A stretch of DNA of 23,907 nt from a virus, in IMG/VR virus record IMGVR_UViG_3300044972_000585, positions 1-23,907 of that record. The stretch is one strand, 5' to 3'. A program made the position numbers and the translations under genes. Below, one piece after another: positions 1,303 through 18,181 of the stretch; the first letter of the stretch is position 1; each line of letters opens with the position of its first letter. The notes under the pieces were generated by a model. The model was not told the DNA's origin, made no database searches, and worked only from the letters and a program-made list of their open reading frames with translations.

Positions 1303-3378
1303 TTATATTAAAGAACGAGTTTTAATTGTTCTATCAAATTGTTGTTGGTTGGTAATCTCTGTTCCTGTAACATAAGTTCTAACTGGTTGTCTCGTCAATG
1401 TATCATTTAATAATTGAATAAATCTTTCAGTATTATCTGTATCGGGTTTTTTCTTTTGTTGAGCCAATCCACCCATAGCAAATTGTGGGGTTGCTCCGGC
1501 ATTATTTATTGCCGATAATAATGGTTGGAATAATCTTGTTGAACGAGCATTTACTACGAACTCACCATCAGATAAGAATGCTGGTATTGAATCAGAATCA
1601 CTTGAACCAGGACCTCTAACAAATCCACCTTCAGCAAATCCTTTTCCTGCTGTTACATTTATTGGACCTCCTACTTTTGCTGATGGTCCTGATGGTGTTG
1701 ATTGAACCCCACCTCCACCACCGGCACTTGATGGAGCATTTGGAACTTGAACTGCGGTAATCTTTTTAACTGTCGCAATACCTGATGCCACGGCAGCTCC
1801 TGCTGCGATGGCTCCCAAAGCCGGACCTATGATTGGAATACCCGCTAATGATTTATATGCCGCTACTGCTGATTGGTATGTATCAATCGTTGCTTTGGCA
1901 ATTGCGAAACCTTTACCAGCAACAGTATCTTCCCCAACGATTGTAGATAATTGACCTAACGCATCACCAACTAATTTTGTTTTTTGTTGTGATGATACAA
2001 CCTCTGCCTTATCAATTTCTTGACGAGCCTTTTGGTTTGCTTGTAGTCGTTTGGTATATTCTTGTTGAGATATTGCCCCTCTATCTAATGCGGCTTTAAG
2101 GTCTAAATTATTTTGGTCGTTTTTTTCTTTTAAGTCCTTATAATAGTTTGCGTCAAATTGCTTGAACTCACCATACTTTAAGTCAATTGCGTTTAACTCT
2201 GCTTGGTATGAACTATCTAATGATTGTAATATCGCATCAGCATATTGTTTTCTTAATTGTTGTCTTTCAAGTTCAGAATAAGATGTTGCGTTGGTAAGTT
2301 CTTGTTGTAGTTTTTCATAGACACCAAGTTGTTGTTCGGCATTACCTTTTGTTCCATCAAGTTCAACTTGTAGTTCTTCTAATCGTTTCTTCTTTCTGTT
2401 TTCCTCTTCGGTCTTTTTCTTATCGTCATCAGCCTTTAATGCCTCTTCTAATTTCTTGGCATTTTCTTGTCTTAAAACTAATTTTTGTGCTTCAGATAAT
2501 TTTTGTCCTTCAAGTTCTGCTTTATATCTATCGTCTAATAGTTTCTTTAGTTTTTCTCTTGAGGTATTTTCCTTATCTGTTTCAAGTTTTATTTTGGCAT
2601 CAAGGTCAGCCTTTCTTTTTTCTAATTCTTGTTCTCGTATTTTTTGTCTGGCTTCAGCATTTTCTTTTTCTGTAGCAGTTTGTAATTCAGTTCCAGCCTT
2701 AAAATCTTTTTGGAACTCATTATATCTTTCAGTTGTTTTGTCCCAAGAGTTAGTAAGTTGTGTATAACCTTCTTTAATGGCATCACTATCTAATGTGAAA
2801 ATACCTTTTAAGATTTTTCCAACACCAGCACCGGCTTCTTTAACTAATGTGAATAATGATACTAACGCAGCATAATAAGTTCCAATACCTTTGGTAATAA
2901 CTGGTAATACTTTTACTGCTAATTGAATGAATACATCTAATAGAGGTTGAAGGGCAGTTACAAGACCACCAAATAACTTTTCAATCTGTATCATCAATGG
3001 TTGTAATGATTTCAATGCTGTTTCAGATTTGCTGAACGCACCTACCAATAAACCTATCGTTGATACAAGTAATCCAATACCTGTTGCTTTAAGAGCAGTT
3101 CCAAATGATACTGTTGAGACCTTTAATGAATTGATTGTTCTACCAAGCATTCCTAAAGGACCACCAGCACCTTCTAATGTATCAACCCAATCTTTAGAAA
3201 CATTCTTACCTGATTTAATTTTGTCTTCTAAATCATCAATCTGTCCGTATAGTTTCTTAAACTCTTCTGAACCTGCTGCTGTAAGTTTTAATTGTTTCTT
3301 TAACTCTTTTAATTGAGCTATGGAGCCTTCAACATTTGTTTCAATGTCTACTTCAACTTCTACTTTTTTCTTTGCCAT
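1303..3378 (-). CDS. Tail tape measure protein
   Basis: This 691-residue protein has the classic tape-measure layout. A charged coiled-coil start (about 1-60) is followed by hydrophobic segments (about 96-115 and 137-180), a long Lys/Glu/Gln-rich coiled coil (about 230-470), an Ala/Gly hydrophobic patch (about 500-550), a Gly/Ser linker, and a C-terminal GGFVRGPG...SDSIPAFLS motif with GEFVVNA (about 593-620). That motif is common at the C-terminus of tape-measure proteins. Tape measures set tail length and are threaded through the tail tube. At the usual figure of about 0.15 nm per residue, this length would suggest a tail of roughly 100 nm. Its ATG overlaps by one base the stop of the 42-codon gene upstream, so translation is probably coupled. 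No sheath gene is seen nearby, favouring a siphovirus. Confidence 0.85.
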   Translation of the reverse strand: MAKKKVEVEVDIETNVEGSIAQLKELKKQLKLTAAGSEEFKKLYGQIDDLEDKIKSGKNVSKDWVDTLEGAGGPLGMLGRTINSLKVSTVSFGTALKATGIGLLVSTIGLLVGAFSKSETALKSLQPLMIQIEKLFGGLVTALQPLLDVFIQLAVKVLPVITKGIGTYYAALVSLFTLVKEAGAGVGKILKGIFTLDSDAIKEGYTQLTNSWDKTTERYNEFQKDFKAGTELQTATEKENAEARQKIREQELEKRKADLDAKIKLETDKENTSREKLKKLLDDRYKAELEGQKLSEAQKLVLRQENAKKLEEALKADDDKKKTEEENRKKKRLEELQVELDGTKGNAEQQLGVYEKLQQELTNATSYSELERQQLRKQYADAILQSLDSSYQAELNAIDLKYGEFKQFDANYYKDLKEKNDQNNLDLKAALDRGAISQQEYTKRLQANQKARQEIDKAEVVSSQQKTKLVGDALGQLSTIVGEDTVAGKGFAIAKATIDTYQSAVAAYKSLAGIPIIGPALGAIAAGAAVASGIATVKKITAVQVPNAPSSAGGGGGVQSTPSGPSAKVGGPINVTAGKGFAEGGFVRGPGSSDSDSIPAFLSDGEFVVNARSTRLFQPLLSAINNAGATPQFAMGGLAQQKKKPDTDNTERFIQLLNDTLTRQPVRTYVTGTEITNQQQFDRTIKTRSLI

Positions 3379-13935: not shown

Positions 13936-15531
13936 TTATTGTTGAACTAATAATCTTTCGCTATTTTCTGTGTTTATGTATGCCCCACTTTGAGCCAATA
14001 ATCTATTACCTGATGCTACTGGACTTGGAGTAGGTGTTGGAGTAGGTGTTGATGTTGGTGTCTCGGTTGGAGTATTAGTAGGGGTCTCACTCGGTGTTTG
14101 AGTTTGTGTAACACTTGGAGTAGGAGTATTAGTTGATGTTGTTGTAGGCGTTTGTGTTGGTGTCTCACTTGGTGTTTGTGTTTGTGTAACACTTGGAGTT
14201 GGTGTGTTTGTCGGTGTTTCTGTAGGTGTTTGTGTTGGTGTCTCACTCGGTGTTTGTGTAGGAGTTCCTGTTTGTGTTGCTGTAACACTTGGGGTTGGTG
14301 TGGTTGTATTAGTAGGAGTTTGTGTAGGAGTTCCTGTTTGTGTTGCCGTAACACTTGGAGTTGGTGTCTGTGTTGATGTTGGAGTTACTGTTGGAGTTGA
14401 TGTATTTGTCGGTGTTAAGGTAGGCGTAGGAGTTTGTGTTGATGTTGGAGTAATAGTAGGGGTTGGTGTTTGAGTAGGTGTCTGTGTTGGTGTCTGTGAT
14501 GGAATAAACGAATCAAATGCGGCATCACATCTATCAAGAGCAGTTTTAACTTGAATTGATATTTCAGCAACCCAACCACCAAGTAAGTCATCGTATTTTT
14601 CCATAAATGGAATACAACTAACCGGTGTATCTAAATAATAATTTTCATTAAAGTTTCCCAAACTATCCGTAACAGATAATCTAAATTGTGATAATACATC
14701 ATCTAATATTTGGTTCGTATCAGACAACACATCAATTTGATTGGCTAAATCTCTTTCAATTATATCACTAACAATAATGGTAAATCTATAATCCATATAA
14801 CCAAAGTTCTGTGTAACCTCTCCTGGCACCACATAAAGATTTGGATATATTGGTGAATTAAATGTTGTGTTCTCTTCTTTGTCTCTTGATTCATTCCAAT
14901 AGATAAAATCATCCATTGCCCCTAAACCAAATGAGTTTAATTGTTTGTGATGGTCGGCAAGTAATCTAAAATCATCATAAAATGTTCTTAAGTTTATTCC
15001 TTCGTGGAATATTGGTGTTCCCGTAAATGTGTTATAAGCCGCAGCACATCTATCAAGATTAGTCATTGTCTTAATTTTAATAAGACCATTCCAACCATTT
15101 GTTAAGTCATCTTCCTTTTCTAAAAACGGGGTGCAATTTACTGCCTCATCCAAATAATACTTGTTGATGAAATTACCCTCAAAGGCGTTTACAGATAATC
15201 TAAACTGGCTAATAACATCTTGGAGTATTTGTAATGTGTCTGATACTGTATCAACTTGGTTAGTTAAATTAGTTTCCGCAATATCCATTACAAGAGTATT
15301 AAACTCCCACTCCTTAAACCTAAAATCATTTTGGACTCTTGATGGAACAACATATAATAATGGATAATATGGCGCGTTGAATGATGTATTCTCTTCTTTG
15401 TCCCTTAATGTAGTCCAATAAGATAGTTGGGATACATCACCTAAACCAAACGAGTTTAATTGTTTGTGTCTATCTGCCAATAAATTAAAATCTACTGCGA
15501 TTGTCTTAAAATTGATGGTTTGACCGGTCAT
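13936..15531 (-). CDS. Tail protein with duplicated N-terminal domain and long Thr-Pro stalk
   Basis: This protein has 531 residues. Residues about 14-168 and 187-342 are tandem copies of one domain. LAD-[RH][10 protein letters not shown] occurs at 18-31 and 191-204, RDKEENT at 43-49 and 216-222, SQFRLSV at 108-114 and 281-287, YYLD at 125-128 and 298-301, and LDRC at 159-162 and 333-336. The IYP-LYVVP and W-x-I patterns suggest a compact tail-completion or neck-type fold. This is inference. Residues about 345-505 are a Thr-Pro-rich stalk, and the last 25 or so residues ([20 protein letters not shown]) form a short cap. The gene starts immediately next to the stop of the minus-one frame of the upstream gene. 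The combination of a duplicated virion-binding domain and a stalk suggests a decoration or fibre attached to the tail neck. Confidence 0.55.
14018..14505 (-). repeat. Thr-Pro stalk DNA with 49-bp direct repeats
   Basis: About 160 codons of TPT-type repeats ([35 protein letters not shown]). The copies at 14253-14301 and 14319-14367 are 49-base direct repeats differing at two positions, offset by 66 bases. Further partial copies containing tctcact-ggtgtttg and acacttggagt lie at 14083-14205. All offsets preserve the reading frame. The run is open in other frames too, producing spurious Cys/Val/Gly-rich ORFs on the plus strand. Confidence 0.85.
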
Positions 15532-15789
15532 TTAATTTTCTTGTTGCTTCATTATCCTTTCGGTTTCTTTATTGAGGTCCATAAGGTAAGACAGATGGTT
15601 AAGACAAGCCACAAGGGGGAGAGAAGTAACATAATCAATTTGCCAAATCTTGTTTTCGGCAAGGACATTGATTCCTTGATACCAACCCCAAAACGCATTA
15701 AAGCTATTCGGAGTTTCATTATCTCCCACATCACTTTGTTCTTGGAATAAAAGTCCGAAAGTTCCAACAATCCTCTCCCTAAAGTTGAT
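15532..15789 (-). CDS. Minus-one frame extension of the chaperone-like gene (T-like part of a GT-type fusion)
   Basis: The minus-one frame is open from 15807 through the slippery run to a stop at 15532-15534, directly adjoining the next gene's ATG at 15529-15531. Reading the zero frame to the UUA codon (15791-15789) and then shifting back one base gives a predicted fusion of 163 + 85 = 248 residues. The extension contains a hydrophilic linker (SDVGDNETPNSFN), then FWGWYQGINVLAENKIW, VTSLPLVACLNHLSYLMD and an amphipathic end. It looks more protein-like than the zero-frame alternative. Flush packing against the next gene also argues that this frame is translated. A single-base error in the ten-base homopolymer would give the same appearance. 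Confidence 0.6.
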   Translation of the reverse strand: MNFRERIVGTFGLLFQEQSDVGDNETPNSFNAFWGWYQGINVLAENKIWQIDYVTSLPLVACLNHLSYLMDLNKETERIMKQQEN

Positions 15790-16277
15790 AAAAAAAAAAG
15801 GGCTCCTTCAAGATTTTTATAAGGTAGCGTCTTCATTTGTTCTATTCGTTTGGGGAAATCACTTTTACCATACTCTAATCCTTCCTCACAATATAAATAG
15901 GCAGCCAGTTCATTTAAGTTGGCAATTCTATATGCTTCATCTTTCTTTAAGAACGAATCAATATCCACAAATTGACCGAAACTAATTTTTGATGTATCCA
16001 ATAAATTATATTTAATACCATTAAGTTCAATCTTTGGTTGTAGATTTTTCCCTCCTTGATTCATCAATTTATTTATGGTTTCACCTACCAACTGAATTGT
16101 GGCAGCATCTGATTCCATAATATCTTTCTTTGATAGACCGGTAATCTTTTCTATTAGGGACACATATAATTCGTGTTCGTCCAATAGGTCTTTTAATTTC
16201 ATTACATCAGACCAATCTTGAATGGTTGGTTCTTTAATCTCGTATTTCTTTCCTTTGTGTTGAATGTAATTCATCAT
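15552..16277 (-). CDS. Tail assembly chaperone-like protein, zero-frame (G-like) product
   Basis: This 241-residue frame begins MMNYIQHKGKKYEIKEPTI. An N-terminal helical domain (about 1-75) is followed by a beta-containing segment (IELNGIKYNLL, about 83-93) and a helical segment up to GALFFL at residues 158-163, where the slippery run lies. After the run the zero frame continues for 78 residues and ends in a hydrophobic stretch (LIMLLLSPLWLVLTICLTLW) that looks like a shadow of the minus-one frame. Placement at the head of the tail genes, size, and the frameshift resemble the lambda G/GT tail assembly chaperones, which hold the tape measure. The ATATTTAT leader is five bases from the second ATG (16274), which may be the true start. 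The chaperone assignment is inferred from architecture. No diagnostic domain was identified. Confidence 0.5.
   Translation of the reverse strand: MMNYIQHKGKKYEIKEPTIQDWSDVMKLKDLLDEHELYVSLIEKITGLSKKDIMESDAATIQLVGETINKLMNQGGKNLQPKIELNGIKYNLLDTSKISFGQFVDIDSFLKKDEAYRIANLNELAAYLYCEEGLEYGKSDFPKRIEQMKTLPYKNLEGALFFLSTLGRGLLELSDFYSKNKVMWEIMKLRIALMRFGVGIKESMSLPKTRFGKLIMLLLSPLWLVLTICLTLWTSIKKPKG
15789..15809 (-). promoter_or_regulatory. Candidate programmed -1 ribosomal frameshift site (U UUU UUA) with upstream SD-like GAAGGAG
   Basis: On the minus strand the sequence reads GAAGGAG (15809-15803), then CCC and ten T (15799-15790), then A. In zero frame the codons are CUU UUU UUU UUA, so the heptamer U UUU UUA at 15795-15789 sits in the correct X-XXY-YYZ register. 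An internal SD-like sequence upstream of a slippery site is a known stimulator, as in dnaX. A possible stem (ttggaa at 15742-15747 with ttccaa at 15762-15767) lies about 21 bases downstream, rather far for a stimulator. Confidence 0.6.
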
Positions 16278-16293
16278 CTATAAATATATTTTT

Positions 16294-17439
16294 TTAATAG
16301 AACACATATTGTCCTGGCGTTCTCATTGACTTCATTTGTAAGACATATCTTATCGCATCAAGTATGTGGTTATTCTTATCTTCAGGTTCATCTAAATTAC
16401 CTCCGTTCTTATCTGATTTCCATACATAAGAATTGACCTCATCAATTAAATTAGATGATTGTGAATTGATAAAAAAGTTTGCTCTTTTAATTTGGTCTAT
16501 ACCGGATAAGATTGTGTCCTTCTTAACTGGCTTGGCATTTATCCCATTACGGGTCATCTCTGTTATTGCTTGGGGGTTGGCACTATCACATATAAAATCT
16601 TCTCTTAAATTGACCCCCAAGTCCTTTATCTTGTAAATAAAATCAGGTATGGTTACATTTCTTAAGTATAATAGTTCTTCACAATAAATTGATTCATCAA
16701 ACTTATAAACTGCCACCAAAGTTGAGGGGTCATTAAATCCAAAGTCAATTCCATATCCCAATAGTTTCGCTGATTGTGGTAAGGTCTCATAAAATTGTTG
16801 ATGGTTAAATACAACTCTTGTTGGAATACCCTTTTGTCCTAAACCAAATACCCTCCATAAGTTCTGGTCTCTATGTTGTAGTTTCTCAATTTCTCTAATT
16901 AAAGAGTCATCTAAAAATGGATTGTCTTTGTATGTAATGATTGTGTAAAATACATCAGGTTCATTTTCCAAATCATATATCCAAGATTTCCACAATGAGG
17001 GGTTTAAGTCAAGAACAATTCTACCTGATGTTCTTAATACCAATTGGATATATTCATCATAAGATACTTCTGTTGCCTCGTTGATAAAAAGGTAATCTCT
17101 TTTTCTTCCCCTTAATTTTGACTCGTCATCACAACTTATCCATTCTATTGTATTTGTTCCAAGTTGATAATAACCATCAACTGAATGCCATTTATCAGGT
17201 TCATATACATTAAACATAATTAAGATTTCTTTAAGGTCTCTCAAAACAGAACCCTTGAGTGCTGGTAGGGTTTTCCTGACGATGGTGAGAACTTTATTAT
17301 CTTCTTGGAGTAATTTACTTACCCACCATATTAAGATGTTGTAGGTCTTGGATGCTCGTGATGAACCCTGAAACACACAGATTCTTTTATCCGTTATTTC
17401 AAGGTCATCAAAAACTTTTGTCGTTTGTATTTTAATCAT
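16294..17439 (-). CDS. terL: Terminase large subunit
   Basis: This 381-residue protein is the packaging ATPase and nuclease. The Walker A-type motif is QGSSRASKT (24-32). RGRKRD (110-115) leads into Walker B DYLFINEAT (115-123, with E121 as likely catalytic carboxylate). The nuclease domain shows GIDFGFNDPS (D232), CDSANP (D285) and HILDAIRYV (D361), the three acidic metal ligands expected of the RNase H-like fold. Spacing and order match the PBSX/XtmB type (Terminase_3 family). It is slightly shorter than many relatives (about 400-450 residues) but all motifs are present. Its start overlaps the end of the HNH gene by eight bases. Unusually, no portal gene follows. The next gene is the chaperone-like one. 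Confidence 0.93.
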   Translation of the reverse strand: MIKIQTTKVFDDLEITDKRICVFQGSSRASKTYNILIWWVSKLLQEDNKVLTIVRKTLPALKGSVLRDLKEILIMFNVYEPDKWHSVDGYYQLGTNTIEWISCDDESKLRGRKRDYLFINEATEVSYDEYIQLVLRTSGRIVLDLNPSLWKSWIYDLENEPDVFYTIITYKDNPFLDDSLIREIEKLQHRDQNLWRVFGLGQKGIPTRVVFNHQQFYETLPQSAKLLGYGIDFGFNDPSTLVAVYKFDESIYCEELLYLRNVTIPDFIYKIKDLGVNLREDFICDSANPQAITEMTRNGINAKPVKKDTILSGIDQIKRANFFINSQSSNLIDEVNSYVWKSDKNGGNLDEPEDKNNHILDAIRYVLQMKSMRTPGQYVFY

Positions 17440-18181
17440 TCAACCATTCTTCAGGTAGTTTATTTGATTTACTTAAGTTTTCTTCCCACCAAAGAGGTTG
17501 AAGATTTGTATAGTGGCAAAGGTTAAAATATTCTTCTTCAGTTTTTGCTTTTGATAAAGGATATTTGTGGTCTAAATGCCAACCAAACTGATTCCAGTTA
17601 TTCCAACTCATCTTTTCAGTAAATTGATTTTCTATATGTTTTTTTAATTCATCCAAAGTGCATCCTACAATAGACATAGTATTATCACTCATAGAGTTTT
17701 GTTTAAGACATTTTCTAATCCTCGCTCTTAAAGCATTTTTTAATCTCACATTAAGTTGTAACGAATAGTTTTTTCTTGATTTGATATTATTAGGGTTATT
17801 CCAATTTTTATTTTTTGAATTGATAGAGGTTTTTTTTCTTTTATCAGGATTGTTGATTATATATTTTTTTTTCAAATCCTTAACATAATCTCTATTATTC
17901 TTATTTTTGTTTTTACAAACTTTACTACAAAACTTTTTAAGTGGATGAAAATTACCTGTATGATTATTACCACATTCTAAACAAACAATCATAATTTTAT
18001 TATAGGACCATTTTGTCTTTTTTGGGTTTTTATTTTTTAATCTATCTTGTTTAGATATTTCATTTTTACACATTTTACACTCGTATCTAAAACCATCTTT
18101 AGATGATTTTAATATTCCAAACTCTGTGATATTTTTATTCATCCCACACCTACTACAACATTTTGTTTTAATAATTTCCAT
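17432..18181 (-). CDS. HNH endonuclease with zinc-ribbon modules, homing-type
   Basis: This protein has 249 residues. The N-terminus has a CxxC-x22-CxxC ribbon (C9, C12, C35, C38). A second Cys cluster (CLEC, then CSKVC) follows at about 67-90, then a Lys/Asn-rich linker. The C-terminal HNH domain reads WHLDHKYPLSKAK (D204, H205), TNLQPL (N226) and ENLSKSNK (N235/N240). This architecture is common in free-standing phage homing endonucleases. Small HNH proteins next to terminases can also assist packaging in cos phages, but those are shorter and lack this double ribbon. It is conspicuously richer in A/T homopolymers than its neighbours, with 42 Lys and 36 Asn in 249 residues, which suggests separate acquisition. 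It sits between the methyltransferase and terL, overlapping terL by eight bases. Confidence 0.8.
   Translation of the reverse strand: MEIIKTKCCSRCGMNKNITEFGILKSSKDGFRYECKMCKNEISKQDRLKNKNPKKTKWSYNKIMIVCLECGNNHTGNFHPLKKFCSKVCKNKNKNNRDYVKDLKKKYIINNPDKRKKTSINSKNKNWNNPNNIKSRKNYSLQLNVRLKNALRARIRKCLKQNSMSDNTMSIVGCTLDELKKHIENQFTEKMSWNNWNQFGWHLDHKYPLSKAKTEEEYFNLCHYTNLQPLWWEENLSKSNKLPEEWLND

Follow-up and report, generated by a model that had tools for sequence, protein, structure and literature searches.

A conserved T9/T10 run at the frame transition of a tail chaperone-like gene in putative Bacteroidota phages is a probable site of transcriptional slippage

Tail assembly chaperones of the gpG/gpGT type bind the tape measure protein and the tail tube protein and are absent from the virion; their gene usually, albeit not obligatorily, immediately precedes that of the tape measure protein, and the frame switches of tail chaperones are textbook examples of ribosomal frameshifting. 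The work that places the threshold for slippage in vivo at 9 A or T, and that describes for Thermus dnaX how nearby stops end translation of the slipped transcripts, treats the known switches of phage tail chaperones as ribosomal (PMC5009743). For transcriptional realignment, a threshold of T runs above 8 has been used (PMC3711429), the RNA polymerase of E. coli prefers poly(T) and insertion (PMC6260861), and the avoidance of long runs has served as a signature of slippage-prone genomes (PMC1088944). A search of the open-access literature did not turn up a tail chaperone of a Bacteroidota phage for which transcriptional slippage had been reported. Here we describe a phage gene for which such a mechanism appears probable.

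The gene is encoded on a viral contig of 23,907 nucleotides (IMG/VR record IMGVR_UViG_3300044972_000585), analysed at full length and referred to as the window, where a first-pass annotation had proposed a programmed -1 frameshift at the heptamer U UUU UUA. Direct reading of the minus strand at this site gives GAA GGA GCC CTT TTT TTT TTA TCA, with ten T's at 15799-15790 (feature 15790..15799, minus strand, as are all window features described below) that fall into the zero frame as NTT TTT TTT TTN. The proposed heptamer is indeed in register, as is, one codon before it, U UUU UUU. The zero-frame ORF (15552..16277, 241 aa) consists of an N-terminal, G-like domain common to both predicted products (residues 1-163; 15789..16277) and a zero-frame tail that runs for a further 78 codons (15552..15788) and closes with a hydrophobic stretch and a Lys-rich end. 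The -1 frame is open over the run up to a stop at 15534-15532 that abuts the ATG at 15531, and encodes a T-like domain of 86 codons (15535..15792), so that the predicted fusion comprises 248 residues; this length, the 78 further codons of the zero frame and the other coordinates given originally are all confirmed. The +1 frame is closed by a TAG three codons past the run (15779..15781). The overlap between the zero and -1 frames amounts to approximately 60-90 codons across relatives and is unusually long, as had been suspected.

The neighbor upstream of the frame-switch gene encodes the terminase large subunit (16294..17439; Terminase_3, PF04466), and this synteny is kept: in most relatives with enough flanking sequence (161 of the 168 loci with a T10 run and 190 of the 218 with a T9 run), the gene comes after the terminase gene, and tail-module genes come next. 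It does not adjoin the tape measure gene, which was identified by multiple PHROG matches and is located about 12 kb downstream (1303..3378). Profile comparisons connected the N-terminal domain to phrog_166 'tail protein' (22 of 23 members, best E 1.5e-5) and, below the cut-off, to Phage_TAC_7 (PF10109; 6 of 23 members). The predicted model of this domain had no meaningful match in the PDB; among its BFVD neighbors, two proteins are named tail assembly chaperone (E 1e-3 and 2e-2). The -1 domain gave a poor model (pLDDT 62) and an uninformative fold search. These weak but consistent signals agree with the original designation of the gene as tail chaperone-like, and they tentatively suggest a chaperone-like protein rather than a proven gpG/gpGT member. 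From isolate relatives that grow on flavobacteria, we infer that the phage is a tailed phage of the Bacteroidota type.

Between a DNA methyltransferase gene and the terminase gene, the window carries an Endonuclease VII/HNH-like gene (17432-18181) with an A9 run; apart from the T10 itself, no further run of at least 9 was found in the window genes. The product of 13936-15531, a protein of 531 aa, contains a domain present in two similar copies, after which comes a long Pro-Thr repeat, and PT repeats of this kind are present in two more proteins of the same module. The structural module also includes a BspA-type leucine-rich repeat protein (PF13306; 11338-13509), possibly involved in host binding.

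Scanning viral contigs with the zero-frame product resulted in 80 relatives, and in all of those that reach the site the run is exactly T10, in an unchanged register. Further loci of the same kind came from scans with the -1 domain, which are independent of the run. Automatic scoring was possible for 386 of 393 loci, representing 121 distinct sequence contexts, of which 218 have T9 and 168 have T10, with no run of T8 or less and no T11; because the scored loci share ancestry and some contigs were counted twice, not all of them are independent. Among the 7 unscored loci, four that were inspected have T9 or T10, a fifth has T9, and one is without the site (the contig ends). The T9 and T10 clades are homologous over both domains (hhalign E 2e-16 for the N-terminal domain and 2e-21 for the -1 domain), and the T9 clade includes a single T10, made by substitution, the base before the run being also a T. 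On a tree of 95 T10-clade members, which corrects for shared ancestry in part, the ten T's show no change, compared with an average of 15.9 changes at the third position of an upstream codon; the third base of NTT is invariant while the preceding N changes 12 times, and the base after the run changes 9 times. This conservation is far beyond chance. Furthermore, the architecture in which the N-terminal domain is encoded alone and as a -1 fusion to the downstream domain is kept in all relatives, in support of a programmed -1 frame switch. No relatives were found in 84,980 prokaryote genomes.

These observations also bear on two simpler explanations. Homopolymers are prone to misreading, and if the true run consisted of 11 T's, the gene would be a single continuous ORF. 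The same register, however, is shared by hundreds of loci, drawn from many samples, and by a GenBank isolate, Nonlabens phage P12024L, and the zero frame beyond the run is under selection (see below); in several hundred environmental loci and the isolate, neither a run of in-frame length nor a continuous frame lacking the homopolymer was found. Therefore, a single-base sequencing or assembly error is excluded for practical purposes. Replication slippage, which is possible on long homopolymers, could in principle change the run length in the DNA itself, such that virus sub-populations would switch between the two proteins, but such phase variation is highly improbable because no locus has a length that places the -1 domain in frame and because the length is fixed at T9 or T10 in each clade, the one deviation having arisen by substitution. 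Both explanations are thus rejected by the conservation across loci.

The gp40/gp41 genes of phage P12024L were found via the -1 domain, lie directly after the terminase gene, and read CTT TTT TTT TAT at the junction, that is, T9 in the same register. P12024L_41 (JQ823123.1, 24473-24640), annotated as a gene of its own encoding 55 aa, corresponds to the 3' part of the -1 domain, and the record accordingly misses the start of that domain. A weak fold neighbor of the N-terminal domain was detected in Flavobacterium phage 6H (gp10; L218, 10050-10927, minus strand); when read for a slip site, gp10 showed no long T run (no T9) and no simple -1 continuation. About 290 unannotated bases after gp10 resemble a second-frame domain.

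Which element of the site is conserved can be read from the flanking bases. In the T10 clade, the run is preceded by C, A or G and followed by A, G or, once, C; about half of the members carry U UUU UUG (one, U UUU UUC) instead of U UUU UUA. In the T9 phages, U UUU UUA is out of register and only U UUU UUU is in register. Since the base after the run varies and the register is lost in the T9 relatives, U UUU UUA, which the first-pass annotation had emphasized as the heptamer best known from HIV-1, is not the conserved element; what is kept is the run of T9 or T10. All members share one in-register heptamer, U UUU UUU, and the run exceeds the length needed for it by 1 base or more. No conserved downstream stimulatory RNA structure was detected, either by single folds or by alignment, and an HIV-type element was rejected on these combined grounds. 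The Shine-Dalgarno-like GAAGGAG noted upstream of the run is present in the window; as a conserved stimulator it was rejected, such a motif being found in only 22 of 80 and 2 of 30 relatives.

Given the run length, the avoidance of such runs in other genes and the lack of conserved stimulators of ribosomal frameshifting, transcriptional slippage, originally listed as a second option, is now the better supported mechanism, and we favor it over ribosomal frameshifting. Specifically, it is rather likely that a G-like product and a GT-like -1 fusion are made from one chaperone-like ORF mainly via slippage of the RNA polymerase at T10. Translation of the unslipped U10 transcript in the zero frame would yield the G-like product, whereas some transcripts would gain one U, and normal translation of such U11 transcripts would enter the -1 frame and yield the GT-like fusion. 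The insertion bias of the E. coli polymerase is in the direction needed to reach the -1 frame here. Loss of one U or gain of two would lead into the +1 frame and, within a few codons, to a stop, resulting in a short G-like product. A ribosomal -1 slip on U UUU UUU within the same run may contribute.

A purely ribosomal switch, in which two tRNA-Phe would slip in tandem on U UUU UUU (or, for the T10 clade, on U UUU UUA/G) as in lambda gpG/gpGT, is the main competing possibility, to which we assign a clearly lower probability. The heptamer is in the zero-frame register in every member, the -1 direction fits, and precedent among tail chaperones is on the side of the ribosome. However, an in-register slip on U UUU UUU would need only T8, and the observed minimum in the 386 loci is T9, although this minimum could reflect an amino acid constraint, with Y, W, L or F at the fourth codon and L or F at the -1 codon; in addition, neither a Shine-Dalgarno-like motif nor a downstream structure is conserved. 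For slippage by the polymerase, a conserved A/T homopolymer of at least 9 at the frame transition is the expected feature, and one was found in 386 of 386 loci.

The avoidance of such runs elsewhere was assessed in 339 other genes of 59 non-redundant loci by comparing observed counts with those expected under codon-usage nulls, on which all the expected counts given here rest. A runs of at least 9 are strongly depleted (3 observed, 20.6 expected), whereas A8 runs are not (29 and 32.7); among T runs, depletion extends over T7 (13 and 35.5), T8 (3 and 9.5) and T9 or longer (1 and 5.2). Long runs are thus avoided, and for A runs the avoidance begins at 9, not at 7, which argues against a purely ribosomal process, although replication slippage could also account for the purging of long runs. 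The sole T run of this length in the 339 genes is a T9 in another gene of one T9-clade phage (L280, 4117).

A fourth and weaker line of evidence for slippage comes from the +1 frame. A +1 stop within 3 codons of the run is present in all relatives examined: in 23 of 23 T10-clade representatives, against a mean probability of 0.35 by position or 0.62 per genome given the -1 amino acids, which thus explain it in part, and at an identical codon in 42 of 42 T9 representatives. Such a stop would be useful only if +1-frame transcripts exist and has no purpose under a ribosomal model.

Both overlapping frames are under selection in both clades, and the zero-frame tail is open in every relative. In the T10 clade, the zero-frame tail is free of stops in 23 representatives, whereas 6.8 per genome are expected after synonymous recoding of the -1 frame and 2.2 when codons are shuffled within each gene; on the tree, third-position changes of the -1 frame drop from 15.9 to 8.6 in the overlap, without a drop at first and second positions. 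The T9 clade behaves similarly, with no stops in 42 representatives against 3.6 expected, and with third-position changes reduced from 15.5 to 8.9. The absence of stops and the third-position constraint in both clades imply that the long overlap is selected in both. The hydrophobic stretch, in contrast, is specific to the T10 clade: a Kyte-Doolittle value above 1.6 over 19 residues is reached by 99% of the T10-clade zero tails and by none in the T9 clade, and the hydrophobic peak is above the mean of stop-free recodings in 23 of 23 T10-clade members. The hydrophobic tail, once described as odd, is a conserved, dual-coded feature of this clade. That the zero-frame tail is a functionless by-product, and that nothing matters beyond the -1 fusion and a product terminated early, is improbable in view of the missing stops, the near halving of third-position changes and the hydropathy, even if the clades differ in the sequence and hydropathy of this tail and the zero tail of the T9 isolate P12024L is just 28 codons long. 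Sequence searches and a PDB fold search with the zero-frame product gave no meaningful match (model pLDDT 75, from 23 sequences); as guesses, the tail might serve as an anchor, or it might shield the tape measure protein where that protein is hydrophobic.

Taken further, the data can be accommodated by a three-way switch, which we put forward as a tentative extension with less than even chances: U10 transcripts would encode the product with the membrane-like dual-coded tail, U11 transcripts the GT-like fusion, and U9/U12 transcripts a short product whose end is set by a +1 stop under selection. By slippage, a single gene would supply two forms, and perhaps three, of what is probably a helper protein in tail building. 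If this switch is real, slippage would be the ancestral and near-universal mode of tail chaperone expression in a large Bacteroidota-type phage group that has evolved an overlapping gene of 60-90 codons. If slippage alone is correct, a large phage group with T9/T10 in a run-purging background would be a strong natural case of the polymerase doing the job otherwise ascribed to the ribosome, and the T9 and T10 clades provide a ready-made comparison. The long overlap is an unusually clear case of a single stretch of DNA specifying two proteins, of which one acquires a hydrophobic tail. Annotation would benefit as well, because the genes of the available isolate are labeled as unrelated hypothetical proteins.

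Among described systems, the closest are the Nonlabens (Persicivirga) phages P12024L (gp40/41) and P12024S (gp38/39), in which homologous N-terminal and -1 domains occupy the same position after the terminase gene; these phages differ from the window in having T9 (read in P12024L) instead of T10, a short zero tail that is not hydrophobic, and an annotation as two separate proteins. Lambda gpG/gpGT and the HK97-type chaperones likewise produce, in tailed phages, an N-terminal domain alone or fused through the -1 frame to a C-terminal domain. There, a heteropolymeric heptamer is located near the end of G and the zero frame ends near the slip site; here, the site is a T9/T10 run, the zero frame continues for approximately 60-90 codons, and the gene follows the terminase gene, far from that of the tape measure protein. 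HIV-1 gag-pol shares the heptamer U UUU UUA, which happens to be in register in the window, but in these phages of bacterial hosts it is neither kept in relatives nor accompanied by a conserved downstream structure. With Shigella mxiE and spa13 and Thermus thermophilus dnaX, the phage gene has in common a homopolymer of 9-10 (T9/A9-A10) at the frame transition, the avoidance of long runs elsewhere, and a nearby stop in another frame. It differs from these cases in that it belongs to a phage structural module, includes a long dual-coded overlap, and has slippage predicted from sequence.
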